A DNA stretch of 64,000 bases from Bacillota bacterium. Its GTDB lineage: Bacteria > Bacillota > Negativicutes > Sporomusales > CTSoil-080. A program made the position numbers and the translations under genes. The stretch is taken from the NCBI GenBank assembly GCA_017889635.1, contig JAGGAC010000001.1:62001-126000 (forward strand), in the 5' to 3' direction. Shown here one piece after another: positions 15,563 through 42,451 of the stretch; position 1 is the first letter of the stretch; every line of letters starts with the position of its first letter. The notes beneath the pieces are model-generated. The model ran no database searches and was not told where the DNA came from. It saw only the letters and a program-made list of their open reading frames with translations.

Positions 15563-17002
15563 ATGGTGAAGTATGTAGAGACTGAGGTTGCGGTTATTGG
15601 GAGCGGGGCGGCTGGGATGGCGGCGGCTTGTGCGGCTGCGGAGCGGGGGGCTAAGGCTACGATATTTGAAAAGAATAGCCGGATTGGCGGCAGCATTCGG
15701 GGTGGGATGGGGCCGCTGGGGATTGAGAGCCATTTGCAGAAGGAAAAGCACTTGCATTTTACTGCCGAGGAGGCATTTAAGTTTCATATGGATTTCACGC
15801 ATTGGAAGGTGGATGCCAGGCTGGTCGGAGAGTATATCCGTAAATCGGCGGACACTATTTCCTGGCTGGAAGGGATGGGGGTAAAATTTACTGATGTTGC
15901 CGCCTATTATCCGGGGGCGTATTTTACCTGGCACACGGTGGACTATGAGGCTGAGAAAATTACCGATGTTTTGTTTGTCCAAGCCAAGAAATTCGGCGCG
16001 GAGATTTATTATGAAACAACGGTGAAGAAGATTCTAAACGATAATGGCCGGATACTTGGTTTAAGTGGCCGAGATAACTACGGCAAGGATATTATGGTTC
16101 AGGCGAAAGCGGTTGTTGTTGCTACCGGGGGAGGCAGTGGCAATGCTGCATGGATAAAGGAGCAGACAGGATATAATCAGGGCCAGGATTTATTTATAAT
16201 ATCTTATCCTGAAATACAGGGGGAAGGCGTACGTATGGCCTGGGAAGCGGGGGCGGCAGCGTCGCCGGTTACGGTTGACGCTTTTATTTGTCTGCCTGAT
16301 CCGTATGGCGGCCCGGGCGGGACTTTGGAGGAGCTGGGAGCGTTTCGCCAGCCCAATTTGATGGTTAACCTGGACGGCGAGCGGTTTATGAATGAGGAGA
16401 TAATAAAAAATCCGGGGTTGGGAGGAAATGCGGTGCATCGCCAGAAAAATGGCTGCGGGATTATGATCTTTGATGCGCCTATTAAAGACGACTATGCTGA
16501 ATACGGCCTGGACTATGGCTTGGTTAACCGACCATTTAGAAAAGGCGCACCAATTGACGGGATAATTGAGAAGGCCCGATGCGAAGGCTATGAGCATTTA
16601 TTTATGGCGGACTCAATTGAAGAGCTAAGTGCTGCAGCTGGTATTGACGCTAGAAATTTGGCGCGCACTATTGCAGAGTACAACGCGGCTTGTGATAGCG
16701 GGCGGGATGAGATTTTCTATAAACCGCCTAAGTATCTTCGGCCAATTACTAAGCCCAAATTCTATGCTGCCCGGTTTTTCCTCAGTGGGTACGGGGTACT
16801 GGGGGGAATAAAGATCAATCATCATGCCGAGGTTTTGAGCAAGGAGCATGAGGTTATTTTGGGCTTGTATGCGGCGGGAAATGATGCAAATGACGTTTTT
16901 GGGGATACATACCCCTTTGCTCTTGCGGGCAGCAGTTCAGGTTTTTGTTATAATATCGGCCGTATTGCCAGAGAAAATGCCGCAAAATATGTACAGAGCT
17001 AA
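15563..17002 (+). CDS. FAD-dependent oxidoreductase (fumarate-reductase flavoprotein family)
   Basis: 479 aa. It opens with the Rossmann FAD motif VIGSGAAGMAAACAAAERG (about residues 10-28) and FEKNSRIGGS. Later come the FAD-domain segment VVVATGGGSGN and the C-terminal GLYAAGNDANDVFGDTYPFALAGSSSGF, which is the FAD_binding_2 / flavocytochrome c pattern. There is no signal peptide, heme or Fe-S motif, so it is probably a cytoplasmic flavoprotein acting on an organic acid or enoate; the substrate is unknown. Start: TTG 15548 would include the ribosome site, so ATG 15563 after GGGAG is chosen. It is not obviously co-transcribed with neighbours. Confidence 0.8.
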   Translation: MVKYVETEVAVIGSGAAGMAAACAAAERGAKATIFEKNSRIGGSIRGGMGPLGIESHLQKEKHLHFTAEEAFKFHMDFTHWKVDARLVGEYIRKSADTISWLEGMGVKFTDVAAYYPGAYFTWHTVDYEAEKITDVLFVQAKKFGAEIYYETTVKKILNDNGRILGLSGRDNYGKDIMVQAKAVVVATGGGSGNAAWIKEQTGYNQGQDLFIISYPEIQGEGVRMAWEAGAAASPVTVDAFICLPDPYGGPGGTLEELGAFRQPNLMVNLDGERFMNEEIIKNPGLGGNAVHRQKNGCGIMIFDAPIKDDYAEYGLDYGLVNRPFRKGAPIDGIIEKARCEGYEHLFMADSIEELSAAAGIDARNLARTIAEYNAACDSGRDEIFYKPPKYLRPITKPKFYAARFFLSGYGVLGGIKINHHAEVLSKEHEVILGLYAAGNDANDVFGDTYPFALAGSSSGFCYNIGRIARENAAKYVQS

Positions 17003-27482: not shown

Positions 27483-28646
27483 ATGGGATTCGATTCAGTA
27501 TATTCTCTTTTAAATATTGGTAAAATTATGGCCGGACCAAATAGTATCGAGTCAATTAAAGATTTGGTTGCTGGTTATTCGGCGCAATCAGTGGTTATTA
27601 TTACTGATCAAGGCGTCTGGAACGCCGGACTTATTGATAGGCCCAAGGCTATTCTTGAAGCGGCAGGCGTTAATGTAAAGGTGATTAATAATACACCGCC
27701 GGAGCCTACTGTTGCCGAGGTAACAGAGATATTTGACGCTGCCAAAAAGTATGAATGCCAGATGATTATTGGTATTGGCGGCGGTAGTTCGATGGATGTA
27801 GCGAAGATTGTGGCGATTATGCTAAATAACATTTTATCGCTAAAGGACTTATTGAATAAGGCTTCGGTGGAGCGGCGGGGAGTACCTACGCTAATGATCC
27901 CGACTACTGCCGGAACCGGAGCCGAAGCAACGCCAAACGCGATTGTGCTTGTGCCGGAAGATGAATTAAAGGTCGGTATCGTAAGTGAGAAGATGGTACC
28001 GGACTGTGTTATTTTAGATCCAACGCTAACGGTCAATCTCCCTAAATCTATTACCGCATTTACTGGAATGGATGCGTTATGTCATGCTATCGAGTGTTAT
28101 ATATCCAAAAAAGCAAATCCATTAAGTGATACGTTTGCCTTAAAAGCGGTGGGGCTGATTGCCCGCAGCATTCGCCGGGCATATAATGAGGGCGGCGATT
28201 TAGACGCCCGCCATGACATGCTCCTTGGCGCGATGTTTGGGGGAATTTCGATTGCAACGTCAAGTACAACCGCGGTTCACGCTTTAGCTTATCCTCTTGG
28301 CGGTAAGTACCGGATACCACATGGCTTATCAAATGCAATTTTGCTGCCGCATGTTATGAATTTTAATTTGGATGTTGCTCAGGATAAATTTAAGGATCTT
28401 GCTGTTGCTATGGGGATTGAAGTTGATGGGCTTTCGAATTTACAAGCCGCTGAAAAAATGATTGAAAACCTATATTCTTTAATTGTGGATTTGGATATTA
28501 CTTTCAGTTTAAAAGAAAAAGGCATAAGTGAGTCTGATCTGGATGGAATGGTCGAGGCAGCCGCTAAAGTAACAAGACTGCTGGACAATAACCCCAAGCC
28601 AATGACTAAGAATGATATGCGGGCGATATATCAAAAATTACTGTAA
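27483..28646 (+). CDS. Iron-containing alcohol dehydrogenase
   Basis: 387 aa, type III Fe-dependent ADH. The NAD-binding segment GIGGGSSMDVAK and the metal site H-A-I-E-C-Y together with HALAYPLGGKYRIPHG are present, including the iron-ligand His residues. It reduces an aldehyde or oxidises an alcohol at the end of the pathway. An upstream frame start at 27444 lacks a ribosome site, while AGGAG at 27470-27474 serves ATG 27483. It is the last gene of the sigma-54 operon; no strong terminator follows. Confidence 0.87.
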   Translation: MGFDSVYSLLNIGKIMAGPNSIESIKDLVAGYSAQSVVIITDQGVWNAGLIDRPKAILEAAGVNVKVINNTPPEPTVAEVTEIFDAAKKYECQMIIGIGGGSSMDVAKIVAIMLNNILSLKDLLNKASVERRGVPTLMIPTTAGTGAEATPNAIVLVPEDELKVGIVSEKMVPDCVILDPTLTVNLPKSITAFTGMDALCHAIECYISKKANPLSDTFALKAVGLIARSIRRAYNEGGDLDARHDMLLGAMFGGISIATSSTTAVHALAYPLGGKYRIPHGLSNAILLPHVMNFNLDVAQDKFKDLAVAMGIEVDGLSNLQAAEKMIENLYSLIVDLDITFSLKEKGISESDLDGMVEAAAKVTRLLDNNPKPMTKNDMRAIYQKLL

Positions 28647-28689: not shown

Positions 28690-28718
28690 TTGACAGAGAA
28701 AAAATATTTTGCTAAAAT
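28690..28718 (+). promoter_or_regulatory. Promoter of the riboswitch-htpX transcript
   Basis: TTGACA (28690-28695), 17-nt spacer, TAAAAT (28713-28718): near-consensus. It starts a transcript about 20 nt before the riboswitch. Confidence 0.85.
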
Positions 28719-28740
28719 GGATTCAAAATACATGTTAAAC

Positions 28741-28865
28741 CCTTGGGGGAGTAGCTTTGAAAAGGTCAGTGTCAACAACCGGTGTAATACGCCTGGCACT
28801 GCCATTGGGTAACCAATAAGCGAGACCTGTGGTAGCGAATGTCGTTACTGCGGTCTCGTTTTTTT
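28741..28865 (+). promoter_or_regulatory. yybP-ykoY (manganese) riboswitch with intrinsic terminator
   Basis: The aptamer opens with GGGGAGTAGC (28746-28755), has the internal CAGTG...CACTG stem and an ATTGG-GTAA-CCAAT hairpin, and closes with GCGAGACC (28820-28827), a variant of the conserved GCAAGACC. The last motif pairs with GGTCTCG (28852-28858), forming a terminator followed by seven T residues. Metal binding to the aptamer would free the transcript to continue, the ON-switch logic known for this class. The only gene in range is htpX. Confidence 0.8.
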
Positions 28866-28907
28866 ATAGATAAATGCAAATATAATTAAAATTTGGAGGC
28901 TTTACAA

Positions 28908-29762
28908 ATGAATTCGTTAAAAACGACTGTCTTACTGGCTGCTCTTACGGGTTTACTGGTAACCGTCGGTTATTTATTTGGTGGCAAGGGCGGCATGACT
29001 ATCATGTTTATCATCTCTTTGGGGATGAATTTCTTCAGTTATTGGTTTTCAGACAGTATTGTGCTGAAAATGTATAACGCGCGGCAGGTTTCTCCTGAAC
29101 AGGCACCTGATTTAATAAGAATGGTGTCAAAACTGGCACAGCAAGGCAAGATGCCAATGCCTAAGGTCTATATTGTTGACAGCGATGTTCCGAACGCCTT
29201 TGCTACCGGGCGTGATCCTGAGCATGGTGTAGTTGCCGTAACAACCGGGATTATGCGGACGCTGAATTATGATGAGCTGGAAGGGGTCGTTGCTCACGAG
29301 TTATCGCATATCAGAAACCGCGATACTTTAATTAGTACTGTGGTGGCATCTCTGGCCGGTGTGATTACGATGATTGCTAATATTGCTCAGTGGGCGGCAA
29401 TTTTCGGCATAGGCCGCAGTGATGACGAAGAGGGCGGCGGAATACTGGAATTTCTTATTTTAGTTATTGTCGCGCCGCTTGCGGCAACGTTGATTCAACT
29501 TGGCGTGTCACGGTCGCGGGAGTATATTGCCGATGAGACCGGGGGCAGGCTGTCCGGCAATCCGCTGGCGCTTGCGAGCGCTCTGAAGAAGATTGAGTAT
29601 TATGCTCAACATCAGGTTTTACCTGATGCAACTCCGGCTACAGCACATCTCTTTATTGTCAATCCGTTTAAAGGAGCCGGCAGCTGGATGACCAACCTGT
29701 TCAGCACTCATCCTTCGACTGCTGAGCGCGTTGCTCGCCTGGAAGCTCAGGCAAGAAGATAA
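28908..29762 (+). CDS. htpX: HtpX-like membrane zinc metalloprotease
   Basis: 284 aa, peptidase family M48. It has two N-terminal membrane helices, the zinc motif HELSH (in [15 protein letters not shown]), two further helices, then [11 protein letters not shown] with the third zinc ligand. The active site faces the cytoplasm and degrades misfolded membrane proteins. Start: a TTG 15 nt upstream overlaps the ribosome site GGAGG, so ATG 28908 is chosen. It is preceded directly by a manganese-type riboswitch, an unusual control for this protease. Confidence 0.92.
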
Positions 29763-40791: not shown

Positions 40792-40843
40792 AAATATACA
40801 GGGACTTCCCCGGCTGCTATGCTGGGAAGTCCCTGTATATTTT
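40792..40843. terminator. Bidirectional terminator between ABC-F and prfC
   Basis: A 17-bp or longer stem, ATATACAGGGACTTCCC with its complement, has a 13-nt loop and T/A runs on both sides. Confidence 0.9.
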
Positions 40844-40849
40844 AAAATA

Positions 40850-42451
40850 TCATTCTGGTGTCATGCCTGGCGGTGTTGCCAGAAACTCGACGCCTGGATT
40901 GCGCTCTCGGACCCAGTTGAGTTGCCATTCGGTGGCAATGAGTATCAGAGGTCGTCCGTTGGTATCTTCAAGCAGCATACAATTGTCCATGCTTTTTAAA
41001 GCTTTGGGATTAAGATTCTCGCCTGTTACCCAACGGGCGACACCGTAAGATAATTGGTGCATGAGAATGTCTACGCCGTATTCTTGCTTGAGGCGGTACT
41101 CAAGTACTTCGAATTGAAGACTGCCGACGACGCCGATGACGAAGGATTCAATAACATCAGGCTGCCGAAAGACTTGGACCGCGCCTTCCTGGGTGAGCTG
41201 GGTCATGCCTTTGATAAACTGCTTGCGTTTCATAGTGTCTTTAGCCTGTACTCTGGCAAACTGCTCCGGCGGAAAAACCGGGAAGTCTTTGAAGCGGAAT
41301 TGATGGCCAAGCTGGCACAAGGTATCGCCGATGCCGAAGACGCCTGGGTCAAAGAGGCCAATAATATCGCCGGGATAAGCATCTTCGACAATGGTGCGGT
41401 CTTGGGCCAGAAACTGCTGGGGTTGGCTAAGCTTAAGCTGTTTGCCGGATTGGATGTGAAGAACGTTCATACCACGTTCGAATTTACCTGAGCAGATACG
41501 TATGAAGGCAATACGGTCGCGGTGGGCCGGGTTCATATTGGCCTGAATTTTAAAGACAAAGGCTGAGAAGAAGTCGCTGTCAAGACCAACAGTTCCTTCT
41601 GATGTCTGACGGGGTGTTGGCGCTGGTGCCAGACGCAAAAATTCTTCAAGAAATGGTTGGACGCCGAAATTAGTCATGGCGCTGCCAAAGAACATCGGGG
41701 TAAGTTCGCCACGGGCGACTTTATCATAATCAAATTGGTCACCAGCCATGTCAAGCAGGGCGATGTCATCCGTCAGTGTTTGATAAGCTGCTTCGCCAAG
41801 TAATTGTTGAAAGGCCGGATCGTTTACACTACCAACGGTTGAGGCCAGCGCTTTTTGGCCGTGAGTTCCGTCTTTATCAAATAGTTCAACTTGGGCTTTC
41901 TGACGGTTGTAGACGCCGGTGTAGTTTCCGTCTACGCCAATTGGCCAGTTCATAGGATACGCCCGAATGCCAAGTACCTTTTCCAGCTCTTCCATTAAGT
42001 CGAAGGGATTCTTTCCAAAGCGGTCAAGTTTATTGACAAACGTAAAAATCGGAATGCCTCGTTCTTTACATACTCGGAAAAGCTTTTTGGTTTGTTCTTC
42101 GACGCCTTTGGCCACATCGATAAGCATGACGGCGCTGTCGGCAGCCATTAATGTACGGTAGGTATCCTCACTGAAATCCTGATGGCCGGGGGTGTCTAGA
42201 ATGTTGACCCGAAACCCCTGGTAGTCGAACTGGAGAACGCTGGAGGTTACCGATATGCCACGCTGCTTCTCGATTTCCATCCAATCGGAGGTAGCGTGTT
42301 TAGTGGTTTTACGTGCTTTAACTGAACCTGCTAGGTGGATGGCTCCGCCGTAGAGCAGCAGTTTCTCGGTCAGTGTTGTTTTACCGGCGTCAGGGTGGGA
42401 TATAATCGCGAAAGTACGCCTTGTATTAGCCTGGGTAATAATATCTTCCAT
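40850..42451 (-). CDS. prfC: Peptide chain release factor 3
   Basis: 533 aa translational GTPase. G1 SHPDAGKTTLTE, switch I around KQRGISVTSS, G3 DTPGHQDFSEDT and G4 NKLDR, then domains II and III with the RF3-specific GVVGSLQFEVLEYRLKQEYGV. It removes RF1/RF2 from the ribosome after peptide release. Start follows GGAGG. It is divergent from the DUF188 gene. Confidence 0.95.
   Translation of the reverse strand: MEDIITQANTRRTFAIISHPDAGKTTLTEKLLLYGGAIHLAGSVKARKTTKHATSDWMEIEKQRGISVTSSVLQFDYQGFRVNILDTPGHQDFSEDTYRTLMAADSAVMLIDVAKGVEEQTKKLFRVCKERGIPIFTFVNKLDRFGKNPFDLMEELEKVLGIRAYPMNWPIGVDGNYTGVYNRQKAQVELFDKDGTHGQKALASTVGSVNDPAFQQLLGEAAYQTLTDDIALLDMAGDQFDYDKVARGELTPMFFGSAMTNFGVQPFLEEFLRLAPAPTPRQTSEGTVGLDSDFFSAFVFKIQANMNPAHRDRIAFIRICSGKFERGMNVLHIQSGKQLKLSQPQQFLAQDRTIVEDAYPGDIIGLFDPGVFGIGDTLCQLGHQFRFKDFPVFPPEQFARVQAKDTMKRKQFIKGMTQLTQEGAVQVFRQPDVIESFVIGVVGSLQFEVLEYRLKQEYGVDILMHQLSYGVARWVTGENLNPKALKSMDNCMLLEDTNGRPLILIATEWQLNWVRERNPGVEFLATPPGMTPE

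Follow-up and report, generated by a model that had tools for sequence, protein, structure and literature searches.

A yybP-ykoY manganese riboswitch with an intrinsic terminator directly precedes the protease gene htpX in a Negativicutes genome

Our analysis confirmed that a yybP-ykoY manganese riboswitch lies with its terminator directly before htpX in the window (the whole 64-kb stretch of DNA analysed), as the earlier note had proposed; by its likeness to known members, the leader should bind Mn2+. Manganese riboswitches are known from transporter and TerC genes, and the members of the Rfam family RF00080 include L. lactis yoaB, B. subtilis ykoY (meeY) and E. coli mntP and alx. We consider it highly probable that Mn2+ switches on the transcription of htpX through this leader and that HtpX is made together with GDT1 and TerC, most likely clearing misfolded, mis-metalated or jammed proteins. 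The features of the locus are the following:

28690-28718, + strand: promoter-like site of sigma-70 type (TTGACA and TAAAAT 17 bases apart, the latter preceded by TG), assigned by pattern with 11 of 12 matches
28738-28834, + strand: yybP-ykoY manganese riboswitch aptamer (model R1, 51.1 bits, E=2e-12; RF00080, 10.6 bits)
28741-28747, + strand: P1.1 5' strand, pairing with 28826-28832 at 6 of 7 positions
28748-28753, + strand: L1 loop GGAGUA, part of the conserved GGGGAGUAGC (sequence, R1 alignment)
28754-28757, + strand: P1.2 5' strand, pairing with 28818-28821
28764-28803, + strand: P3 hairpin with L3 (GUCAACA loop), loop at 28775-28780 (folding, R1 alignment)
28804-28817, + strand: P4 hairpin, AUUGG/CCAAU (folding)
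28820-28859, + strand: intrinsic terminator, U-run to 28865, its 5' strand sharing bases with the P1.2 and P1.1 3' strands
28895-28899, + strand: ribosome binding site GGAGG (sequence reading)
28908-29762, + strand: htpX, ATG at 28908, 284-aa zinc metalloprotease of family M48 (NCBIfam PRK03001, Pfam PF01435)

The upstream neighbour is an iron-type alcohol dehydrogenase-like gene that ends at 28646, and no gene lies between the riboswitch and terminator and htpX in the window. The promoter-like site is one of six in 2 kb, against 3.9 expected, and the other five have 9 of 12 matches each. The translated HtpX scored 379.1 bits with PRK03001 (cut-off 369) and 123.9 bits with PF01435, and its HELSH agrees with the HEXXH motif.

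The assignment to the riboswitch class relied on a model of our own, R1, since Rfam gave no match in the window at the gathering score. When the search was made permissive, the window matches listed held no metal riboswitch other than RF00080, with E=0.71 for the leader against a cut-off of 45 bits, which is a threshold of the model and not a biological feature. Across 13 htpX loci, this model gave one match (L135, 23.6 bits), and the GDT1 leader of the window's own genome, a clear class member, reached 25 bits, also below the cut-off. Furthermore, among the RF00080 matches listed for 150 genomes of the class, one of 37 was over the cut-off and 36 failed it; many of the 37 precede GDT1/UPF0016 or TerC genes, identified with Pfam for GDT1 and TerC of the own genome and by eye for the others. 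By these counts, most Mn riboswitches of this class go undetected with RF00080 at the cut-off now in use. Because the own-genome GDT1 leader and 36 of the 37 listed matches fail the same cut-off while R1 gives 51 bits, we attribute the low Rfam score to a weakness of the model. The Rfam covariance check named in the earlier note was thus negative with RF00080 itself, but the class assignment held with the independent model. At E<=0.001, RF00080 had matches in 29 of the 150 genomes, and R1 had matches in 56 of 60 relatives.

R1 was made from 27 riboswitches outside htpX leaders, from genomes of the class and the own genome, and contains no htpX member. Its candidates were 33 loci, seven of which were dropped: L154, L166 and L171 as near-copies, L156 and L174 as odd, and L165 and L175 as lacking the strict motif. 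The training set has 24 pairs with 96.9% of cells paired and 18 pairs changed on both sides. The R1 match listed above was the sole one in the 64-kb window and had an identical score with filters off; against the R1 structure, the window member has four non-standard marks, that is, two of the 24 pairs. In addition, the window has a single copy of the motif pair GGGGAGTAG...GC[ACG]AGACC, against none in 200 simulated windows, and the leader folds with z=-5.3, a value that none of 200 shuffles equalled. In 15 direct htpX riboswitches 93.9% of cells were paired and 16 of the 24 pairs were changed on both sides. Shuffling gave 10.6 such pairs, with none of 500 shuffles as high as 16, and sliding gave no more than 11; the alignment, having been fitted to the structure, is biased in its favour. 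A MAFFT alignment of window-type leaders was left out of these counts because the window was present twice.

Like known yybP-ykoY members (RF00080), the leader contains the conserved L1 GGGGAGUAGC (28746-28755), the P1.1 switch helix, P3 with L3, P4 and a terminator sharing the P1.1 3' strand. P1.2 and the conserved 3' AGCGAGACC (28819-28827) were also found, so the earlier claim that all conserved parts of the aptamer are present was correct except for L3, which lacks one base relative to the consensus GUCAACAUACUG; with this shorter loop, metal affinity could differ. The short L3 is common to the window and four other htpX leaders (L108, L111, L112 and L113). The window loop, one base short, keeps the CA at 28776-28777, and adenine 28777 probably corresponds to A41 in the L. 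lactis member, on a tentative match of the numbering. The window member is unlike known ones in this loop, in falling below the Rfam cut-off and in its target, a protease gene and not a transporter or TerC gene.

The expression platform competes with P1.1, and the overlap of the terminator with the P1.1 and P1.2 3' strands bears out the shared strand claimed in the earlier note. In predicted folding of growing transcripts, P1.2 was largely formed (0.45-0.90) until the terminator 3' strand was complete; once 28860 was transcribed, terminator pairing rose to 0.98, with P1.1 and P1.2 then near 0. Ligand-free folding favours the terminator, as expected, and the modelled layout is that of an ON switch. 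In the relevant sections of PMC9190785, known members bind Mn2+ between L1 and L3, which stabilises P1.1 against the terminator. Since the window has the same parts as the known Mn2+-binding members, Mn2+ should switch htpX on, a direction that we infer from homology to characterised members. Without Mn2+, the nascent leader would form the terminator at 28820-28859 and transcription would stop, while Mn2+ held between L1 and L3 would stabilise P1.2 and P1.1 and retain the strand needed by the terminator. With the terminator blocked, polymerase would continue into htpX, and at high Mn HtpX would be made along with the GDT1 exporter and TerC of the same regulon.

Pairing with htpX was also found among relatives. 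HtpX was located at 62 loci in 54 of 60 Negativicutes genomes, and a search with R1 of about 1500 bases or less upstream of each gave matches at 18 of the 62, 13 of them direct and five with a TerC gene between. In the direct loci, 147-380 bases separate the GGGGAGTAG motif and the htpX start codon, and no ORF of at least 40 aa lies between riboswitch and htpX in 12 of the 13, in a check that left out L113 (spacing the same as L112) and included also L066 and L081. In the five others the riboswitch is 843-990 bases from htpX. The remaining 44 HtpX loci are without an R1 riboswitch, including that of G001, of the same family, and those of most genomes of the same order, and the riboswitch-htpX link is therefore dispensable. 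Among the best 80 HtpX loci of a wider collection of genome contigs, R1 matched in eight: two are direct (Geobacter sp. UBA4057 and Geomonas oryzae) and six have a gene between (Megamonas, two Pectinatus and three Selenomonas ruminantium records), TerC-like in the five that were translated. The intervening gene is thus TerC in all ten cases translated (five of the 62-locus set and five of the six in the best 80), identified with Pfam for one ORF (L120) and by eye for the other nine; L061 was untranslated. The earlier note had asked whether related genomes keep the pairing and took a different gene between riboswitch and htpX as evidence against it. The pairing is kept in part of them, and a gene does intervene in some, but because TerC is itself a classic Mn-riboswitch gene, its presence strengthens the riboswitch-htpX link.

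The pairing recurs in a second phylum. In 38 genomes of the Geobacterales, the order of Geomonas, R1 gave 57 matches in 32 genomes and HtpX was found at 57 places in 37 genomes. Thirty-four of the 57 riboswitches, in 25 genomes, end 64-95 bases before an htpX match, which makes htpX the commonest partner of the Mn riboswitch in this order, and nine of the 25 genomes carry two riboswitch-htpX units (two HtpX paralogues). Under a fixed rule, a terminator reusing the AGACC strand was present in 36 of 38 direct htpX leaders of both groups; the two misses were L119, with a weak T-run, and L236, with GGTTTTTTTT in place of GGTCT. Recurrence in relatives and in the second phylum suggests a protease made when manganese is plentiful. 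In one Geomonas locus (L207; G150:C12:142740-142853) the riboswitch is followed by htpX and then by a TerC/Alx-like ORF (by eye), the reverse of the gene order in the Selenomonas operons.

Several other explanations of the leader were considered. That the hairpin is a mere terminator of the upstream dehydrogenase gene, with an aptamer likeness due to chance, was excluded by the recurrence across genomes and has a negligible probability. No other terminator-like site is listed on the + strand between 28646 and htpX, as this explanation would have it, but the R1 score, the covariation, the recurrence in Geobacterales, a motif pair absent from simulated windows and the promoter-like site between the dehydrogenase gene and the leader all speak against it. 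It is also very improbable that the RNA is yybP-ykoY-like but no longer selective for Mn2+ and reads another divalent ion through its shortened L3. The missing L3 base, absent also from the same four other leaders, would fit such a change, and in the portion of PMC9495176 consulted, a response to Ca2+ too is reported for a pneumococcal member. However, the likely metal-binding adenine and its CA dinucleotide are kept, and the missing base falls between the contacts listed in the consulted part of PMC9190785, on the same tentative numbering. Another improbable explanation is that HtpX itself is Mn-dependent or Mn-metalated, so that the switch would tie enzyme supply to cofactor supply and not to damage. 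All 124 HtpX examined have a HEXXH metal site, and exported enzymes are metalated with Mn by TerC proteins according to the accessible text of PMC10550928, yet HtpX enzymes are annotated as zinc proteases, and those without a riboswitch carry the same HEXXH motif.

The history of the pairing bears on a further, unlikely explanation, namely that htpX inherited the riboswitch of a riboswitch-terC-htpX operon upon terC loss, so that regulation works but is of little use. In its favour, a gene lies between in five of the 62 loci and six of the best 80, TerC wherever translated, and direct and TerC-between leaders occur within one HtpX clade (L191 and L193 among L187, L188, L189 and L195). On the other hand, leaders of relatives differ in their loop and form at least two types, UCAACA (in the window, L089, L107, L108 and L111-L113) and CGUCA (the others; CGACA in L121). 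All five TerC-between leaders have the second type (CGUCA/CGACA), from which the window loop differs, and Geobacterales show the direct layout again, nine genomes having it on two HtpX paralogues each. On a quick tree of 124 of 127 HtpX proteins (three identical ones dropped), the direct layout needs at least seven changes, four of them forced by well-supported branches, and its labels cluster on the tree, as none of 500 shuffles gave so low a value. Left out of the tree were L007, L017 and L057 of the best 80 and 12 of the 32 loci of relatives with upstream sequence only, none with a riboswitch match. We read this as repeated gain or loss of the riboswitch-htpX pairing, with TerC loss in some lines; the tree fits gains as well as losses.

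We therefore favour the Mn2+-activated ON switch as the explanation of the leader. Under it, HtpX is probably in the service of the machinery for Mn/TerC export and metalation, and would most likely remove membrane- or translocon-bound proteins that become misfolded, mis-metalated or jammed at high Mn or when TerC-dependent metalation is overloaded. The earlier note had guessed that metal stress damages membrane proteins or that HtpX needs or responds to Mn; its class, gene and terminator logic are supported, and as to function, the linkage with TerC speaks more for a part in the quality control of Mn export and of metalation at the translocon. We give about even weight to the wider proposal that htpX belongs to the core of the bacterial Mn-riboswitch regulon, having been acquired repeatedly, and that HtpX is a proteolytic partner of TerC and GDT1 in Mn export and translocon metalation and not a general heat-shock protease.

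Related links between proteases and manganese have been described in B. subtilis. In YqgP-FtsH, as presented in the part of PMC7231995 used here, Mn activates membrane proteolysis, which likewise ties a membrane quality-control protease to Mn excess; YqgP is a rhomboid protease activated by Mn/Zn at the protein level, whereas in the window the protease is of family M48 and the link is an RNA switch on its gene. Similarly, HtpX is among the membrane proteins tabulated as co-immunoprecipitating with TerC proteins (MeeF/MeeY and the secretosome), and meeY has a Mn riboswitch, in the sections seen of PMC10550928; that case is a physical association, and those sections mention no riboswitch on htpX. 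Within the open-access literature, no paper linking htpX to a Mn-riboswitch regulon was found, and only PMC10550928 (with its preprint) was found to contain both yybP-ykoY and HtpX, unconnected in the text available. A survey of yybP-ykoY targets has no HtpX in the main text consulted, and the lineage of Geobacter was not analysed there (PMC3766115). Through a protease target that recurs in two phyla, the quality control of membrane proteins is tied to manganese. HtpX thereby gains a physiological setting that can be tested, and its involvement in TerC-dependent metalation would be worth seeking.

The own genome carries six Mn riboswitches, which lie before GDT1, TerC, HtpX and a gene of no assigned function, with two convergent with NRAMP (L179, G000:C61:9928-10035; L180, G000:C82:14788-14895). 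The one before the gene of no assigned function (L183, G000:C78:9146-9243; 58.7 bits) precedes two ORFs, one of 92 aa that matched nothing in Pfam and one of 156 aa, of membrane type, that matched DUF2076 weakly; they are possibly a Mn-related gene pair. A riboswitch and terminator tail to tail with an opposite-strand NRAMP gene (mntH-like) occur as 13 pairs in 12 genomes, picked by eye among 33 of the riboswitches listed; besides the own genome these are G001, G004, G005, G009, G011, G016, G020, G022, G023, G038 and G046. The spacing is 194-240 bases from the Pfam match, and a 14th case, in G007, has an NRAMP fragment. Read-through at high Mn could possibly yield antisense RNA against this Mn importer. 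In four places (G004:C39, G011:C14, G016:C41 and G020:C34) a Mn riboswitch stands on either side of the same NRAMP gene, the first about 1.1 kb upstream on the NRAMP strand and the second convergent at the NRAMP end. Tandem Mn riboswitches about 60 bases apart were also observed at G018:C11:16070-16167 and 16228-16325, and at G006:C6:40678-40775 and 40842-40937.
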